This document shows, in pieces, positions 12,486 through 62,126 of a DNA stretch of 64,000 bases (the stretch's first letter is position 1; each line of letters opens with the position of its first letter). The position numbers and the translations under genes were made by a program. The notes below the pieces were generated by a model that saw nothing but the letters and a program-made list of their open reading frames with translations, ran no database searches and was not told where the DNA came from. Location of the stretch: IMG/VR virus record IMGVR_UViG_3300033992_001111, positions 34,586-98,585 of that record, one strand, 5' to 3'. Source of the stretch: a virus.

Positions 12486-14858
12486 ATGGATTTATTCAAT
12501 CCACCACCAATTTTTAATTTAAAAGAAATGCAACACAATTTAGATGTGGATACATTAGATAATCCATACATTCAGGTTGTTTGGGAAGATACACCGGAAA
12601 ACTTCACTCAAGAGAGAATTAAGTCGACAAAACAATACTTTACCAAAAAGTATAACTCAACCAATGTGAATGTAATTACGAAGGTTAAAACGACCGAGGA
12701 CACTCAACAAACGATTGATGTGTCTGTAAATATCCTGGATAAGAACTATCAAAAGGAACTTATCAAATCATTACTTGAAAGTAAGGGTCAAGAACAATAC
12801 TTGGACCAAGTAATGAGTATTGATAGTATGGTTGAAAACCGAATGGCAGCCAACGAAGTTGAGGTGACACCATTTAAAAAATGGTACATCAAGAAAATTG
12901 AGTTTAGTAATTTCTTATCTTATGGAGATAATCAAGTTATTGATTTTGATAAGTGTGAGGGAATTACGGTGGTGGAATCCGACCCCCCAAACTTTGGTGG
13001 TAAAACGGTTCTAACTGTGGATTTACTATTGTTCTTATTCTTTAACACAACAACTAAGACACAGAAAGCCGAAGAAATCTTCAACAGGTTTACCGACAAG
13101 AACAAAGTTAGTGTTCGTGGGGATATTCTTATCGATGGTGAGGAGTATATCATTGCTCGTCAAATTGAAAGAAAGATGTCCAAGGCTGGCGAATGGAATG
13201 TAAAGACGGAGTTAGAGTTCTTTAAAAAACTATCTGATGGTCAATTACAAAATTTCACTGGTGAGCAAAGGAGAGAGACGGAAGCGTTTATGAAAAGGTC
13301 TATTGGGACAATGGACGATTTCTTAATGACCATTCTAACCACGGCATCTAACTTGGAGGACTTATTGGAGTCAAAACCAACTGCGAGAGGTCAGGTATTA
13401 TCAAGATTCCTGGGACTTGAGTTCTTGAAAAAGAAAGAAGAAACCGGAAAAGAAATCTATTCAGAGTTCTCGAAAGGGATGATTTCCAATGTATATAACA
13501 CGGAGACCCTGAAACAAGATAATGAGACATCAACGACTGAAATCGAAAGATTAAAGGGTGAGATTACAACAGCAACCGAAAGTATTGGTGAAGTAGATAA
13601 TTCATTGAAAAAAGGTCAAGATTATAAAGATGGATTATTGAATTCAAAACATGCTGATTTGAGTCAGGAACTTATTATTTTGGACCCGGTTAAACTACAG
13701 ACAGAGATTACCACTTATGTTTCAAATAGTAAAACCATCCAACTACAAATTGATAATATTAAGGTTGTTGAACCAAGTGGGTATTACCATGAGGATAAAC
13801 ACGATGCGGTTAAAGAATTATTAACCAATCATAAGATTCAATTAGGAAATACAACACATAAGGTTGGTGAAATTGAAGACCTTGTTAAAAAGTTTGGTGA
13901 CGGTATTCAATGTGAGCATTGTGGGATTAAATTGATGGACGCTGAAATCACCAAAAAGAAGATTGGGGAACTTGACGGAAGAAAAGAAGAAGTTAAAATT
14001 CTTAATGGGTTGATTGAAGAATTGGATAAAGAAGAAAAGACTTATGTCCAACTTAAGAAAGAATTCGATGAGTATGAAAGAAACAAACTTATTAAAGAGA
14101 AACATGAAGTGTCTTTGGAGTCAAATAACTTGAAATTAGAGGCGATAAGGTTGAAACTAACAAGATACGAAGAAGTTCAGGATAAGATTAAACAGAACAA
14201 CGATATTGACTCCAAATTGATTAAGGCGAACCTTCGTATTGATGAGTTGATTAGTCAAAAGAGAGGGTATGAGAAAATTCAAAGTACCAATCAAAATCAA
14301 ATTGATAATCTCTTGTCTCGTATTGAAAAGAACCATGGTCTTGTGTTAAAGATTGCCGAAGAATTTGAAAAAGAAAAAATCTATAAAATCTATAATGAGA
14401 TTTTTGGAAAGAATGGTATAAGTAAGATTATTATGAAGACAATGATGCCAGTGATTAACGCTGAACTTCAGAGGTTACTTCAGGATTCTTGTTTATTCAA
14501 CTTAGAGATTCGAATTAACGATAAGAATGAGGTGGACTTTATTATGATTGATAACTCTACCGGAATTGAACGACCAATTACATCAGGTTCGGGTTATGAG
14601 AAGACGGTGGGGGCGTTGGCCATCCGGGCGGTGTTGTCCAAAGTCTGTTCTTTACCAAAACCACAATTATCGGTTTACGATGAGGTTTGGGGTAAGGTTG
14701 CGAATGATAATCTCGATATGGTTGGGGAATTTTTTGATAAATTAAAAACCTACTTTGAAAAGATATTTGTCATATCACATAACCCAATGATATCAAATTG
14801 GGCCAATACGGTCGTCAAGATTACAAAAACAGAAAATGTTTCAAAAGTCTCCCAATAA
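12486..14858 (+). CDS. SbcC/Rad50-like ATPase (T4 gp46-like)
   Basis: 790 residues. After a roughly 135-residue N-terminal extension, the SMC-type head begins (IEFSNFLSYGDN) with a Walker A NFGGKT near residue 175. Two coiled-coil arms flank a zinc hook CEHCG near residue 478. The C-terminal head has the signature ITSGSGYEKTVGAL and Walker B LSVYDEVWG, then a VISHNP switch. In Walker A the first Gly of GxNGxGKT is Pro. It partners the SbcD-like nuclease at 9511. A strong terminator overlaps its stop codon. Confidence 0.9.
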   Translation: MDLFNPPPIFNLKEMQHNLDVDTLDNPYIQVVWEDTPENFTQERIKSTKQYFTKKYNSTNVNVITKVKTTEDTQQTIDVSVNILDKNYQKELIKSLLESKGQEQYLDQVMSIDSMVENRMAANEVEVTPFKKWYIKKIEFSNFLSYGDNQVIDFDKCEGITVVESDPPNFGGKTVLTVDLLLFLFFNTTTKTQKAEEIFNRFTDKNKVSVRGDILIDGEEYIIARQIERKMSKAGEWNVKTELEFFKKLSDGQLQNFTGEQRRETEAFMKRSIGTMDDFLMTILTTASNLEDLLESKPTARGQVLSRFLGLEFLKKKEETGKEIYSEFSKGMISNVYNTETLKQDNETSTTEIERLKGEITTATESIGEVDNSLKKGQDYKDGLLNSKHADLSQELIILDPVKLQTEITTYVSNSKTIQLQIDNIKVVEPSGYYHEDKHDAVKELLTNHKIQLGNTTHKVGEIEDLVKKFGDGIQCEHCGIKLMDAEITKKKIGELDGRKEEVKILNGLIEELDKEEKTYVQLKKEFDEYERNKLIKEKHEVSLESNNLKLEAIRLKLTRYEEVQDKIKQNNDIDSKLIKANLRIDELISQKRGYEKIQSTNQNQIDNLLSRIEKNHGLVLKIAEEFEKEKIYKIYNEIFGKNGISKIIMKTMMPVINAELQRLLQDSCLFNLEIRINDKNEVDFIMIDNSTGIERPITSGSGYEKTVGALAIRAVLSKVCSLPKPQLSVYDEVWGKVANDNLDMVGEFFDKLKTYFEKIFVISHNPMISNWANTVVKITKTENVSKVSQ

Positions 14859-14874
14859 TGGGGGACTTTTTTTT
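14843..14874 (+). terminator. Intrinsic terminator after sbcC-like gene
   Basis: An 11-bp stem (AAAAGTCTCCC with GGGGGACTTTT, one G-U) closes a 6-base loop and is followed by a run of T. The stop codon of the SbcC-like gene is in the loop. Confidence 0.9.
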
Positions 14875-14984
14875 GTTTTATCAAAATATTTTTGTATTTT
14901 AGTATTTATAATTCATATAAAAATACAAATATAGTTGTATTTATCATGAATAATAACTATATTTATAGTATAAAATTAAAATTT

Positions 14985-17288
14985 ATGAGCGAAGCGAAAA
15001 CTGAAAGAATATTTGAAAGAATAGTTGATATTAATTTAACTAATGATGATTTGATTATTGAATATCAAACATCAAATTATGAAAGTATTAGAAATTTACT
15101 AAAAGGTGCGTCAAAAACAAATAAAGGTGGTACCGGAAAACCGGAACACATTATACAACATAAGCTAACACCCGATTTATTAATTATTACTGAAGGAAAA
15201 AAAAATAATTTAAAACATGAAAGTAATGAATTAAATTACCCTGTAGAATACGCGGTTGACGGAGTTATTCATTATTCATCATTTGTTTCTAAAGAATACG
15301 ATGTAATCTCAATTGCGTTTTCAGGAGATAAAGAAAGTAATTTAAAGATAAGTTATTTTTTTCAACCTAAAAATTGTAAAATAGAAAAAATTGAAACAAA
15401 TGTACCATTAACAATAGAAGAATTAATTCAAAATTATAAAAAAAGTGAGTATAAACTATCTCAAGATTATGATAAGTTATTAAAATATTTAGGTGAACTG
15501 AATAATCAACTACATGGTAAGAAAATCATGGAAATGCAGAGAAGTTTTTTAATTTCCGCCGTTTTAATTGCTTTGGACAATAAAGAATTTAGAGATAATT
15601 TTATATGTTATAACGAAAATCTTCCTGACCTTTTAATTCAATCTGTTGATTTAATATTAGGTAAATTAAAGATTAATGATTTTCAAAAACAAAAATTAAT
15701 ATCTCATCTTAATTTTATTAAAGATGATGGGTTATTTAATTATTCAATCTTAAAAGACATTATTATTGGTGTTGAAAAAAATATTAAAAGATATGTTGAA
15801 ACTTATAAATATAATGACATATTAATGGACTTTCATAATCAAACTCTACAATATGCTAATAATGAAAAAGGTCTTGGAATTGTTTTAACTCCTCATCATT
15901 ACACTGATTTTTTATGTGATATTCTTGATGTTAATGAAAATTCAATATTACTTGATGGATGTTGTGGAACTGCAGGATTTTTAATTAGTGGATTAAAAAA
16001 AATGAGGACTCAAAATCCAAATAAACCACTTGAAGAATTTAGTGAAAATTTTATTGGAATCGAGTATCAACCACATATATGGGCTTTATCTATGTTTAAT
16101 TTTATATTACATGGGGTTATATCACCATATATTTACAGTGGAGATACTTTCGATGAGGAAATCATAAAAAAAGTCTCAAAGATAAAACCAGACATTGGAT
16201 TCCTTAATCCTCCTTATAAATCAGATAAAAAAAATGATAGAGAGGAATTAGAATTTGTTATAAATCAATTAGAGGAAATGAGAAGTGGTGGTGTTGTTGC
16301 TGCGGTTTTACCTATGAGTAGTGCTTTAAATCCAAATGGAAAAATTACGGAGTTAAAAAAACGATTATTATCTAAACATAAACTGTTGGCTTGTTTTTCA
16401 AATCCGGATGAACTTTTCTATAATACAACTGCAACTGTTGTTACTTGTGTTATGATTTTTCAGGCTCACATTCCACATCCAAAAAATTACAAAACTTTCT
16501 TTGGGTATTTTAAAGATGATGGGTTTGAAAAAAGAAAAAATAAAGGAAGGATTGATGTTAATAAAAAATGGGAAAAAATAAAAGAATTTTGGGTTAGTAC
16601 TTATAGAAATAGAGAAGAGAAGTTAGGTATATCTGTTTTTAAAGAAATTTCGTTTGATGACGATTGGTGTGCTGAAGCTCACTTACCTACAGATATTTCT
16701 AAATTAAATAATAATATCTTTAGTCAAAGACTTCGCAATTACCTTTCTTTTTTAATTAAAGAAAATCATTTTGATTTGTTTGACAATATTGCTATAAGTT
16801 CACAATTGGATGAAATTTGTATTTCTGGAGTAAAATCTTGGAAAGAATTTAATTTATCTGATTTATTTGAGATTAATAAAGGAAAAAGGTTAACTAAATT
16901 TCAAATGAATCCTGGCAATAATTATTTTATAAGTTCTTCGGAATTTAACAATGGGTTGACAGGTAAAATTTCTGAAGAACCAATTTTCAGTGGTAATTGT
17001 TTGACTGTAAATTATGATGGTTCAGTTGCGGAGTCTTTTTACCAACCTTTCAATTTTTGGGCACTAGATAGTGTTAATGTGTTATACTCAAAATTTGAAT
17101 TAAATACTCTAAGAGGTATTTTTATTTCATCCATAATAACAAATGAAAAGTTTAGATTTAACTATGGTAGGAAATGGACAAGTGGGTTAATGAAAAAAAG
17201 TAAAATATTTCTTCCATCAACTAACGGAGATGTCGATTTTGAATTTATTGATGAGTTTATGAATAATTTAAATTATAGGAAAAGATGA
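14985..17288 (+). CDS. Type IIG-like restriction/methyltransferase fusion (N6-adenine)
   Basis: 768 residues from ATG 14985; upstream in-frame ATGs at 14946 and 14892 are possible. The N-terminal part has PDLLIITEGKK, a candidate D...ExK nuclease core. The methyltransferase centre has the SAM-binding LLDGCCGTAGFLISGL and catalytic IGFLNPPYKSD (NPPY, N6-adenine class). The last ~160 residues (WKEFNLSDLFEINKGKRLTK onward) resemble one target-recognition domain of type I S / BcgI-like proteins. Nuclease, methylase and specificity in one chain suggests self-modification of phage DNA and possibly cutting of competitor DNA. Nuclease activity is inferred. Confidence 0.78.
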   Translation: MSEAKTERIFERIVDINLTNDDLIIEYQTSNYESIRNLLKGASKTNKGGTGKPEHIIQHKLTPDLLIITEGKKNNLKHESNELNYPVEYAVDGVIHYSSFVSKEYDVISIAFSGDKESNLKISYFFQPKNCKIEKIETNVPLTIEELIQNYKKSEYKLSQDYDKLLKYLGELNNQLHGKKIMEMQRSFLISAVLIALDNKEFRDNFICYNENLPDLLIQSVDLILGKLKINDFQKQKLISHLNFIKDDGLFNYSILKDIIIGVEKNIKRYVETYKYNDILMDFHNQTLQYANNEKGLGIVLTPHHYTDFLCDILDVNENSILLDGCCGTAGFLISGLKKMRTQNPNKPLEEFSENFIGIEYQPHIWALSMFNFILHGVISPYIYSGDTFDEEIIKKVSKIKPDIGFLNPPYKSDKKNDREELEFVINQLEEMRSGGVVAAVLPMSSALNPNGKITELKKRLLSKHKLLACFSNPDELFYNTTATVVTCVMIFQAHIPHPKNYKTFFGYFKDDGFEKRKNKGRIDVNKKWEKIKEFWVSTYRNREEKLGISVFKEISFDDDWCAEAHLPTDISKLNNNIFSQRLRNYLSFLIKENHFDLFDNIAISSQLDEICISGVKSWKEFNLSDLFEINKGKRLTKFQMNPGNNYFISSSEFNNGLTGKISEEPIFSGNCLTVNYDGSVAESFYQPFNFWALDSVNVLYSKFELNTLRGIFISSIITNEKFRFNYGRKWTSGLMKKSKIFLPSTNGDVDFEFIDEFMNNLNYRKR

Positions 17289-34430: not shown

Positions 34431-34751
34431 ATGGAAATTACACAAGAAGAATTAAAACAAAAAATTAAAAATGGGGATAAACTTATTATTGACTTTTGGG
34501 CAAAATTTTGCGGACCGTGCAAAGTTATGAAACCGGCTTTTGATAAAGTATCTGAGGAACTAAGAGAAGGTAACTCGGAAGTTCAGTTATATACCTTAGA
34601 TGTGGAAGAGAATCGAGATTTAGCAGTAGAATTAGGTGTTAGAGCCGTACCAACATTAAAATCTTTTTCAAACGGGAAAGAAGTCTATTCTCAACCGGGA
34701 ATGAAAATGGAATCTCAAATTAAACAATTAGTTGAAGATTTGTTGAATTAA
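34431..34751 (+). CDS. Thioredoxin
   Basis: 106 residues, typical length. Active site WAKFCGPCKVMKP (CGPC), then VQLYTLDVEENRDLAVELGVRAVPTLKSF with the cis-Pro after Val. Probably reduces phage or host disulfide enzymes such as ribonucleotide reductase; no reductase is in this window. Followed after two bases by a glutaredoxin. Confidence 0.93.
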   Translation: MEITQEELKQKIKNGDKLIIDFWAKFCGPCKVMKPAFDKVSEELREGNSEVQLYTLDVEENRDLAVELGVRAVPTLKSFSNGKEVYSQPGMKMESQIKQLVEDLLN

Positions 34752-48937: not shown

Positions 48938-49861
48938 CATTTAAGGGAAACCTTAAAGACGTTCTTAGAAATTTTAGATTATCCTTTACCCACTTCGGTG
49001 GAGTAAAAAACGATAATGGGTGGTATATCATCCTTAAATAAATTGATGAAAATCAATATAAACCGAACTTAGTTGTGTTATTAAGTTTGGGGCTTCTGAA
49101 AGGGAGCTCGAGTATACAAGTGAGATATCAGTGAGCCTGTAGTACCGAGGATAACTTCGTAGGGAAATGGATTACTGACCGGGAGATGTGGGTCTTTCGG
49201 TTGAGGGGGGAACCCCAAATTAAGAATAACTCATAGGAATTATGTGAGAAGTAAGGTCATCCAACCTTATAATTGCGAGTTCCAAAATTAAAGGAATCTT
49301 AACGCCGAAAGGCAAGATTAAGTAACAGGTGGTGCTGACTTTGTCCTTATCAAACATCTACCAAGATGTTGATTTGAAGAATTCTTGAAATTTGGAGATA
49401 GGGATATCTCATCGAGAAGTTTAGTATTTTGTGTCTCAAAAGGATACGAAGCTTATGGTAGACTACTTCTTGAATACATCCACAACACAATTACTATTTT
49501 CAATATGGTGAAAAACTAAAAGAAACATAGCAAAAATGTCTACCCGATGTCATTGACAAGTTGCCTACTTAGTTATGGGATGTCCATAGCACACAAAGAC
49601 CGCAAGTCTGAATGTATTCTTACCAAAAACCTCTACGGAGTCGAATCCGGAGTCAGGTCGCAAGCTTGAAGAGAGTTGAATAATGAGAGAGTAGATGATA
49701 TCGTAAGAAGTGATTGGTCTAACCAATCGGCAATGAGGATTACATCCCAAAAGGGTGTGGAAAAGAAGTCAAACAATAAAACTTCCAAAGATTCTCAATA
49801 AGACGAGTATTCTCATCGTATTAAGCCAAAAAGGTGTTACAGAAATGTGACACCTTTTTTT
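48938..49861 (+). ncRNA. Giant structured non-coding RNA (about 0.92 kb)
   Basis: No protein gene. Dense hairpins with stable loops: TTTAAGG-GAAA-CCTTAAA (48940), TTTACCCAC-TTCG-GTGGAGTAAA (48985), ATTGAT-GAAA-ATCAAT (49042), GGGG-GGAA-CCCC (49205), GCC-GAAA-GGC inside AATCTT/AAGATT (49295), AACATC/GATGTT (49353), GAGATA-GGGA-TATCTC (49395), GATTGG/CCAATC (49712). A promoter precedes and a strong terminator ends it, just upstream of smpB. Size, tRNA neighbourhood and phage setting recall GOLLD and ROOL ornate RNAs; class not confirmed. Confidence 0.7.
49828..49861 (+). terminator. Intrinsic terminator of the giant RNA
   Basis: GGTGTTACA-GAAA-TGTGACACC (9 bp, one G-U) flanked by A5 and T7. 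The -33 box of the smpB promoter starts in its T tract. Confidence 0.93.
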
Positions 49862-60482: not shown

Positions 60483-60496
60483 TAAAAAAAAATATT

Positions 60497-60715
60497 ATGG
60501 AAGAAATGTCAAAAAATATGATGAAATATGCGGAGATTGTTTCAGTTTTAGAACAGAACAATATTTCGTGGAATGGATTGGTTGATGGTTTGGTAGAAAC
60601 TTATCACAATGATAATCCAGAGTATAAACTGAAACAAAATCCAGATTGGTGGAATATTGGAAGTAAAGAAGAAGTTATTGATAGTGTTATATCAACATTC
60701 TCAAAACAAAAATAA
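60497..60715 (+). CDS. Cassette-like ORF 1, hypothetical
   Basis: 72 residues, acidic, with NISWNGLVDGLVETYHNDNP. Followed within five bases by the first attC-like element. Its 5' flank (AAAAAAAAATATTATGGAAGAA) is repeated before the ORF at 61575. Confidence 0.6.
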   Translation: MEEMSKNMMKYAEIVSVLEQNNISWNGLVDGLVETYHNDNPEYKLKQNPDWWNIGSKEEVIDSVISTFSKQK

Positions 60716-60719
60716 TATT

Positions 60720-60777
60720 ACTTATAACGGTTGCAAATAAAACATCGTTTTAATGTGTTTTATTTGTTGTTATAAGT
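60720..60777 (+). repeat. attC-like element 1
   Basis: Outer arms ACTTATAAC/GTTATAAGT (9 bp), spacers GGTTG and TT, inner arms of 11 bp (60734-60744 with 60756-60766, perfect), loop TCGTTTTAATG. The preceding 15+ bases are the same as before element 2. Confidence 0.7.
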
Positions 60778-60814
60778 ATGTATTATTTTTTAAAAAAATT
60801 TAATGAAGTAAAAA

Positions 60815-61159
60815 ATGGAAACAATAATAGAAGAAGGTATTTGGGACATTAAACAAAAACTACCATTAAGAAGGGTTGTATTTACTTGTGATGGAAAAAA
60901 AATCACACGAAATTTGTTTATTTTAGGTGATTCAGAGAATCGAAACTCTAAAGTAGATATTATTGATTTAGAGAAAGTGGAAATTGAAATTAGTTTAACT
61001 AAAATAAATAAATTATCAACAACTGAAATAGGTGAATATTTAAAAAAGAAAGCGGAGGTTTTTGAACCAATTACTTGTTTTGAACGGAATATCAGTAATG
61101 AAATTCCATTTTTTACTTCACCTATAATAACAAAAAATAATATTACTTATAACGACTGA
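60815..61159 (+). CDS. Cassette-like ORF 2, hypothetical
   Basis: 114 residues, alpha/beta with VVFTCDGKKITRNLFIL. The last five codons and stop lie inside attC-like element 2, as is common in integron cassettes. No family recognised. Confidence 0.6.
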   Translation: METIIEEGIWDIKQKLPLRRVVFTCDGKKITRNLFILGDSENRNSKVDIIDLEKVEIEISLTKINKLSTTEIGEYLKKKAEVFEPITCFERNISNEIPFFTSPIITKNNITYND

Positions 61160-61199
61160 GAATATGTGTTCGTTTTAATGACACATATTCTTTGTTATA
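61145..61199 (+). repeat. attC-like element 2
   Basis: TATAAC (61148-61153)/GTTATA (61194-61199), spacers GACTG and TT, inner arms of 11 bp (61159-61169 with 61181-61191, perfect), loop TCGTTTTAATG (61170-61180). Confidence 0.7.
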
Positions 61200-61223
61200 T
61201 TTAGTATCAAAAATTTTATACAA

Positions 61224-61466
61224 ATGAAAAAATGTAAATGTATTAAAGAATCTTCTTGGTTTTTAATTGATGATTCCTTTGACGAAAATTCTAAATTAAA
61301 TGGTGGTAGATTTTCTTTTCAAATGGGTAGTGAATATGATTATTTTGAAGAGGTAACTCCATTTGGAAATGGTATGTCAGTTATACATCCTAAACACGGA
61401 AAAGAAAATCCTACTGGTTTTGATGAAAGAAGATTCTACGAACACTTTGAAATAATAAACTCATAA
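61224..61466 (+). CDS. Cassette-like ORF 3, hypothetical
   Basis: 80 residues beginning MKKCKCIKESSWFLID, with a compact beta-type domain (FEEVTPFGNGMSVIHPKHG). Function unknown. The third attC-like element begins 16 bases after the stop. Confidence 0.6.
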   Translation: MKKCKCIKESSWFLIDDSFDENSKLNGGRFSFQMGSEYDYFEEVTPFGNGMSVIHPKHGKENPTGFDERRFYEHFEIINS

Positions 61467-61482
61467 AATTTTTGATATTGAA

Positions 61483-61534
61483 TATAACGTCCGATGATAA
61501 ACAATCGTTTTAATGTTGTTTATCATTTGTTAGG
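61483..61534 (+). repeat. attC-like element 3
   Basis: TATAAC (61483-61488), spacer GTCCG, inner arms of 11 bp (61494-61504 with 61516-61526, perfect), loop TCGTTTTAATG (61505-61515), spacer TT, then GTTAGG (61529-61534). Outer arms match over TAAC/GTTA only, as expected after cassette joining. Confidence 0.7.
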
Positions 61535-61574
61535 TTTTGTCATTAATTTGTTTTACCTTATAAAAAAAAATATT

Positions 61575-62126
61575 ATGGAAGAATGGTGTATTGAACAACA
61601 TAGAAGTACGAATCACATGTATTCGGAGTGTCGGGTTGTTAAAATATTCAACGAATTAATTCGACATAAATTATCACCGGTTTTTGGTGATAATTTATTA
61701 GATTGTAAATTAATTGAGCGTGGATATGAATATCGATATGATTTACTATTCATTTTCCGAGGAGTCTATAATAATCCGACAATACAATTGGAAAGTGTTT
61801 TAGAAACCTGTGATATGTTGTTTGATTGGGTTGACTTAAGAGACATGGTTAATCTTAGTATTGTTATTATAACTAATGGAAGAAATCAACATTTTAGTTA
61901 TTTTGAGATAATGGATGGAATAGGTGAGAGTGGTAGGGGTTATCAGCATCATATGATAATTAGACATCCAAAATACCGTCAGTATCGGGAATGGAAAACT
62001 AATAGAGAAATAGAGGAAGGAATGAAACGAGCTTGGGAGATGGAGATAGATAGAGTTACAAGAAATGTTAATATACAACAATCAAGAATTACGGAATCAA
62101 GAAAGAAGAAGTTTTTATTTTGGTAA
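61575..62126 (+). CDS. Hypothetical protein downstream of the cassette-like array
   Basis: 183 residues from ATG 61575 (the in-frame start at 61494 lies inside attC-like element 3). Tyr/Arg-rich, with a helical basic C-terminus. Shares its 22-base 5' flank and first residues (MEE) with ORF 1. No fourth attC-like element follows. Confidence 0.6.
   Translation: MEEWCIEQHRSTNHMYSECRVVKIFNELIRHKLSPVFGDNLLDCKLIERGYEYRYDLLFIFRGVYNNPTIQLESVLETCDMLFDWVDLRDMVNLSIVIITNGRNQHFSYFEIMDGIGESGRGYQHHMIIRHPKYRQYREWKTNREIEEGMKRAWEMEIDRVTRNVNIQQSRITESRKKKFLFW

Follow-up and report, generated by a model that had tools for sequence, protein, structure and literature searches.

We found that a 64,000-nucleotide stretch of viral DNA (positions 34,586 to 98,585 of IMG/VR record IMGVR_UViG_3300033992_001111, termed here the window) very probably harbors a three-site gene cassette array, in the form of a cluster of attC sites lacking integrase (CALIN), which belongs to a phage-borne integron whose cassettes are exchanged by an IntI-related recombinase. 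A first-pass annotation, made from the sequence alone, had proposed integron attC sites and gene cassettes at this place, and the proposal is supported by the shuffling of cassettes in related phages and by an integrase gene located beside the same elements in these phages. The window is part of a 98,585-bp virus record, the remaining 34.6 kb of which were examined too.

The three elements (60723 to 60772, 61148 to 61197, and 61483 to 61532) are all on the + strand, measure exactly 50 bp each, and share one layout: TATAAC, GNNNG, an 11-nt arm, the loop TCGTTTTAATG, an 11-nt complementary arm, TT, and GTTA. The arms (CAAATAAAACA in site 1, AGAATATGTGT in site 2, and ATGATAAACAA, the commonest type, in site 3) are perfectly complementary within each element and unrelated between elements, with the frame and the loop being invariant. 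The pattern of this shared architecture, already described in the first-pass annotation, was found in 0/100 shuffled windows (expected number per shuffled window, 0.00). When the 98,585-bp record was searched for more elements, these three were the only matches, and a reversed control pattern matched nowhere in it. When folded as single-stranded DNA, the coding strand yielded z scores of -6.4, -5.8, and -2.9 for the three elements, and the only asymmetry of the hairpin is a 3-nt bulge formed by the NNN of the spacer. Judged by sequence and predicted fold, the three elements are attC sites of an integrase-less cassette array.

We then looked into the distribution of the element by scanning IMG/VR with a loose pattern in which arm lengths were left free. 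The scan hit 113 viral stretches; these contain 35 distinct elements, almost every one of which measures exactly 50 bp. In a set of 18 distinct elements, both partners change at 10 of the 12 base pairs in the arm helix, and pairing is kept in 99% of the cells; cells with a double change numbered 70, versus 19 in shuffles, and the loop and the outer boxes are nearly invariant. The phage lineage thus shows TAAC and GTTA outer boxes, a single-strand hairpin, and a structure that is kept over sequence, as attC sites do. The same frame is present in Bacteroidota chromosomes and metagenome-assembled genomes (MAGs): in Rufibacter immobilis (locus L177; L numbers designate our loci), the element is part of a small array with an IntI-like recombinase of 481 aa, and a Flavobacteriales MAG (L176) displays the same pairing of element and IntI-like recombinase.

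About twenty viral loci that had been found via the element only also encode, beside it, one tyrosine recombinase family. The search for intI suggested by the first-pass annotation, negative in the record itself, was therefore positive beside the same elements in related phages. In a reverse test, 80 loci were chosen by the integrase protein alone, a few of which had also been found by the element scan. At these loci, we detected 180 attC sites upstream on the integrase strand, 2 downstream, and 0 on the other strand, with 0 attC in reversed-sequence controls; at least one attC was present in 53 of the 65 loci with at least 900 bp upstream. The phage integrases have about 265 to 300 aa and contain all the catalytic residues (R, K, HxxR, H, and Y), so that a tyrosine recombinase with its catalytic residues is found next to the array in the phage lineage. 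A fold search, which used a model of moderate confidence (pLDDT 76), gave VchIntIA (2A3V) as the best match by E value, with archaeal XerA close behind. In our tree, 14 of 16 phage integrases fall into one supported clade, apart from XerC/D, and the deeper branches are poorly supported. As far as tested, the contigs with intI or an array are phages: a terminase was found above cut-off in 13 of 29 of them, including contigs of 465, 362, 349, 310, and 309 kb; the terminase family searched in the window's own record gave no match. Counted from TAAC, the attC sites of the integrase-chosen loci fall into length classes of 48, 78 to 91, and 113 to 128 bp, and at the viral loci L203 to L279 these classes are spaced by steps of about 40 bp. 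We also observed that the loops of two long attC sites at L097 (2205 to 2332 and 2596 to 2723) contain stretches resembling a tRNA T arm (GGTTCGATTCC and GGGTTCGACTCCC); ARAGORN called no tRNA on these two sites.

At most loci, the sequence NNTAA↓CTATnATATAT (the arrow marks the proposed exchange point) is located about 55 bp before intI. In its strict form, this attI-like motif was found at 47 of 64 distinct loci, nearly all at a distance of 46 to 64 bp from where the integrase match starts, compared with 46 of 1,145 control windows (4%). The tails to the left of the arrow are the same as those preceding attC sites. Motif and junctions together argue for an attI beside intI in the phage lineage. 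A T is found eight bases ahead of AAC in 47/47 aligned attI junctions, usually within AT(T/G)(G/A)NN, and this pattern is part of the phage cassette tails, i.e., the last 8 to 10 bases before TATAAC. A second small hairpin, for example GTTATAAAA-TCGTTTTAATG-TTTTATAAC, has the same loop with the opposite order of boxes and abuts the exchange point directly; it was seen to the left of attI in L205, L223, and L251 and in the upstream flank of the element in L010, L023, L041, L087, and L097.

Arrays adjoined by an integrase gene and an attI-like site would not be expected if the hairpins were RNA-level signals, namely, terminators or processing sites between small phage genes, unrelated to recombination. 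The elements do lie between codirectional ORFs, mostly right after stop codons, but no T run follows the hairpin, which led us to drop the terminator reading, and an Rfam search of the elements at gathering level gave no match. Moreover, the similarity between phages ends at the outer box, and the same elements are the attC of Bacteroidota chromosomal arrays, where the genes run in the opposite direction. We consider that RNA signaling has almost no chance of being the right explanation.

Classical attC sites read TAACAA...CNNNCGTTA on the top strand and TAACGNNNG...TTGTTA on the bottom strand (e.g., attCaadA7). Genes at the bacterial loci run mainly in the classical sense relative to attC; next to the phage elements, both neighboring ORFs were opposite to it in 128 cases, with a handful of exceptions. 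Because phage ORFs run opposite to bacterial ones relative to attC, we assign the coding strand of the window to the classical attC bottom strand and the TATAAC box to R'. The spacer is kept in 15 of 18 locus pairs with a common downstream gene and different upstream genes, and in 4 of 15 pairs in which only the upstream gene is common. We rejected an exchange point at GTTA, since the spacer on the TATAAC side travels mainly with the downstream gene and since the attI junctions are in TAAC. Exchange would instead take place within the TATAAC box, at TAA↓C or, on the opposite strand, G↓TTATA, a position localized to TAAC and not to the base. Since the exchange point is assigned to this box, the cassette unit would be composed of the element and the ORF after it. 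Of the R''/R' reading put forward in the first-pass annotation, the identity as integron cassettes was retained and the polarity was not, as R'' and R' are swapped and exchange is placed at TATAAC. GTTA and the next ATG are usually separated by some 25 to 45 bp, and for this reason cassettes probably bring their own leader.

Comparison between phages revealed that similarity begins and ends at TAAC well above chance: left borders fall there in 196 of 2,236 cases (about 0.7% by chance). In 21 locus pairs, the sequences are alike as far as TAAC or its box and part beyond it. On its downstream side, the same cassette borders attC in one phage and attI in the other in L096/L080 (99.9% over 960 bp), L245/L247 (100%), L081/L110 (97.5%), and L094/L250 (93.4%). 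Whole cassettes are also reordered, as seen in L080 (59-60-61-8-9-131-attI), L227/L094 (10-8-9-131-attI), and L096 (10-131-59-60-61-132-attI). ORF shuffling at a box boundary in related phages, which the first-pass annotation had proposed as a check, was thus observed at TAAC. Overall, 324 cassettes have a median length of 505 bp, with the longest ORF on the + strand in 316 of them, and arrays contain up to about 8 detected sites. The six cassette products examined include three DNA methyltransferases, an RNA ligase, and an exoribonuclease-like protein. These one-ORF cassettes with an attC are consistent with exchange at G↓TT, within the resolution given above.

An alternative view of these borders is homologous modular shuffling, in which the elements would be conserved gene joints swapped by the general recombinase of the phage. 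Such joints are known from the promoter-stem-loop (PeSL) modules of T4-type phages, where stem-loops are located at the joints of shuffled small genes, as here; PeSL modules are not known to have a site-specific recombinase, an attI, or a fixed exchange point. Short homology does exist in our arrays, given that most elements have the same arm and that conserved leaders follow GTTA, and a secondary peak of similarity ends is found at the GTTA end of the element. However, there are breakpoints at which the two sites, an attC and an attI or two attCs unlike in arm and length, have only TAAC(G) in common, and homology does not account for the strict one-sided polarity, for the linkage to a tyrosine recombinase, or for spacer bases that stay with the downstream gene (15/18 pairs) and less often with the upstream gene (4/15). 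Covarying arms would also be needless. Exchange anywhere in the homology with no dedicated recombinase, as in PeSL-like joints, is not what we found, since divergence is at TAAC and a recombinase is linked, and we regard this alternative as very improbable.

In the window, the array begins after an ORF of 72 aa (60497 to 60715, +), which has a cassette-type tail (ATTACTTATAA) and the own attC of which is missing. The exchange points are placed between 60727 and 60728 in site 1, 61152 and 61153 in site 2, and 61487 and 61488 in site 3. Cassette A (60728 to 61152, +; 425 bp), the borders of which were drawn from the spacer-sharing comparison and from breakpoint pairs among related phages, comprises attC 1 and the following ORF (60815 to 61159, +; 114 aa) and has the same length in relatives. 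Cassette B (61153 to 61487, +; 335 bp) contains an ORF of 80 aa (61224 to 61466, +), and cassette C (starting at 61488, +) includes attC 3 and the following ORF (61575 to 62126, +; 183 aa counted from the ATG at 61575). A small unrelated ORF is indeed present before each element, as first noted, and the one of cassette A ends inside the element that follows it, with its stop codon in attC 2. A Pfam search of the ORFs of the array gave no match. Cassette B recurs in an intI-bearing phage (L221, 2148 to 2487; 94.4%), where each of its two borders falls at TAAC, and a part of it recurs in L072 (83%). Three longer relatives (contigs of 117, 160, and 309 kb) have an array with 100% identity to that of the window, and no array differences were found among close relatives of the window phage. 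We found no attI in the window and its record. The window array, with three attC sites and, in line with the first-pass annotation, no integron integrase, has the composition of a CALIN (at least two attC, no integrase nearby); it would be either a remnant or an array served in trans.

Several observations weigh against an integron. No tyrosine recombinase (PF00589) is present anywhere in the 98.6-kb record, and none was found in the 309-kb relative with the identical array. The phage integrases do not have the IntI-specific insert (I2): for most of them, the TIGR02249 matches flank positions 181 to 238, a stretch without counterpart, and about 32 residues stand where 2A3V has about 80 (about 48 without counterpart). 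Because this insert is missing, the standard IntI model, TIGR02249, scores the phage enzymes below its cut-off (151 to 161 bits, for a cut-off of 265). No attC was detected at 12 of the 65 integrase loci, and some of the 21 breakpoint pairs diverge into neither a recognized attC nor an attI. The common arm type (ATGATAAACAA) could recombine by homology too, and for this arm the breakpoints exclude homology only where arms differ or attI is involved. Finally, the whole case is comparative, being read from sequences for the elements and their covariation, the linkage to intI, the attI-like site, the sharing of cassettes, and the breakpoints.

The lack of intI in the window phage would also fit an array passively captured from a bacterial host integron and without role in phage biology, the mechanism still being that of an integron. 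Bacteroidota chromosomes do contain attC with the same loop together with related insert-less integrases. Yet phage cassette ORFs are opposite to attC compared with those of bacteria, the supported clade of 14 out of 16 phage integrases is grouped apart, and cassettes are common to phages and reordered among them. We therefore view passive capture as unlikely.

We propose that an IntI-related tyrosine recombinase most likely cuts TAA↓C (G↓TTATA) in the attC hairpins and most likely also cuts the attI that precedes its own gene by about 55 bp. The folded coding strand, equivalent to the classical attC bottom strand, would be the most likely substrate and would be exposed as a single strand while the phage DNA replicates. 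In this way, cassettes of a single gene, each made up of an attC and the ORF that follows, mostly with a leader of its own, would be excised, inserted, and reordered. The array of the window phage would be a remnant, or else an integrase encoded by a co-infecting phage or by the host would act on it in trans. We infer the catalytic activity, the strand used, the timing, the benefit, and the single-strand exposure from the comparisons above. It is likely, in our opinion, that large phages, probably of Bacteroidota hosts, possess their own insert-less integrase and attI along with single-gene cassettes in inverted orientation, and that the small genes they exchange, DNA methyltransferases among them, come from a pool common to these viruses and separate from bacterial integrons. 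Phages apparently use the integron to trade small genes with each other.

Other observations concern the integrase family and the rest of the window. The nearest integrases in cultured phages, those of Freya and Ingeline (about 37 to 38% identity), are probably ordinary, with no attC-like elements around. In a 464,605-bp phage contig (G034; L074, 2850 to 4258), intI is broken in two, with about 0.8 kb separating a 178-aa fragment from a short C-terminal one, and Rfam gave no match; truncated intI copies were also found in L035 and L063. A tyrosine recombinase beside tet(X3) on Acinetobacter plasmids (L306, 4043 to 4708; L305, 2967 to 3632) shares about 49% identity with a phage integrase across 222 aa and may be in the same family. 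Between tet(X3) and this recombinase there is a palindrome, followed by GTTATGTG; we did not retain the recombinase as an integron lead, as no clear attC was found. Elsewhere in the window, we detected a GOLLD RNA (49412 to 49819, +; 284.7 bits) with tRNA genes nearby (46015, 47611, and 48654), one tRNA call having a four-base anticodon (aagg), and, according to PHROG matches, an SbcC-like endonuclease subunit followed by a large DNA methyltransferase-like protein (12486 to 17288).

Integrons have been studied almost only in bacteria, and the phage examples on record resemble parts taken over from bacteria. Here, large phages seem to have an integron of their own in use, which would explain concretely how small orphan genes turn over so rapidly in the genomes of big phages. 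An insert-less integrase that handles attC hairpins would test the accepted view of folded attC recognition, and our results suggest that standard integron searches miss this class in Bacteroidota and their phages. We did not find a phage integron lineage with an insert-less integrase described in the open-access literature, preprints excluded.

Integrons, CALINs, or parts of them have been described in 21 phages, and phage attCs recombine with IntI1 in a published assay, among them P12002L_attC2 of the Polaribacter phage P12002L, whose partner site was attI1 (Qi et al. 2023, PMC9892861). As in our case, these phages include virulent ones with integrase-less attC cassettes; the attC of P12002L has the same reading relative to genes and a similar loop (TCGTTTGACGATAGGAAAATG), and the two sites that we found in this phage are in the same polarity as the window attC sites. 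Unlike that study (PMC9892861), we describe a phage integrase lineage without the IntI insert, an attI-like site, cassettes from a common pool, attC sites of a fixed 50-bp class, and phage contigs that reach 465 kb. What the phage system shares with class 1 and chromosomal integrons (IntI1, VchIntIA) is intI, attI, cassettes of one ORF, G↓TT exchange, and attC hairpins whose bottom strand reads TAACG...TTGTTA. These integrons differ from it in that the phage integrase is without the stretch between TIGR02249 positions 181 and 238, the phage attC stems have one 3-nt bulge and no further bulged base, and the phage cassette ORFs are inverted, with genes pointing toward intI. A complete integron was reported in one Bacteroidetes species, Salinibacter ruber (IntegronFinder 2.0). 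The Bacteroidota chromosomes (Rufibacter L177 and Flavobacteriales L176) resemble the phages by their attC loop (CGTTTTAATG) and a related insert-less integrase, whereas their intI is codirectional with the cassettes, the array is 3' of intI, and the ORFs are in the usual orientation. Phage integrons as such were thus already known, and what appears to be new is a divergent lineage that occurs in phages as large as 465 kb and has its cassette ORFs in inverted orientation with respect to attC.
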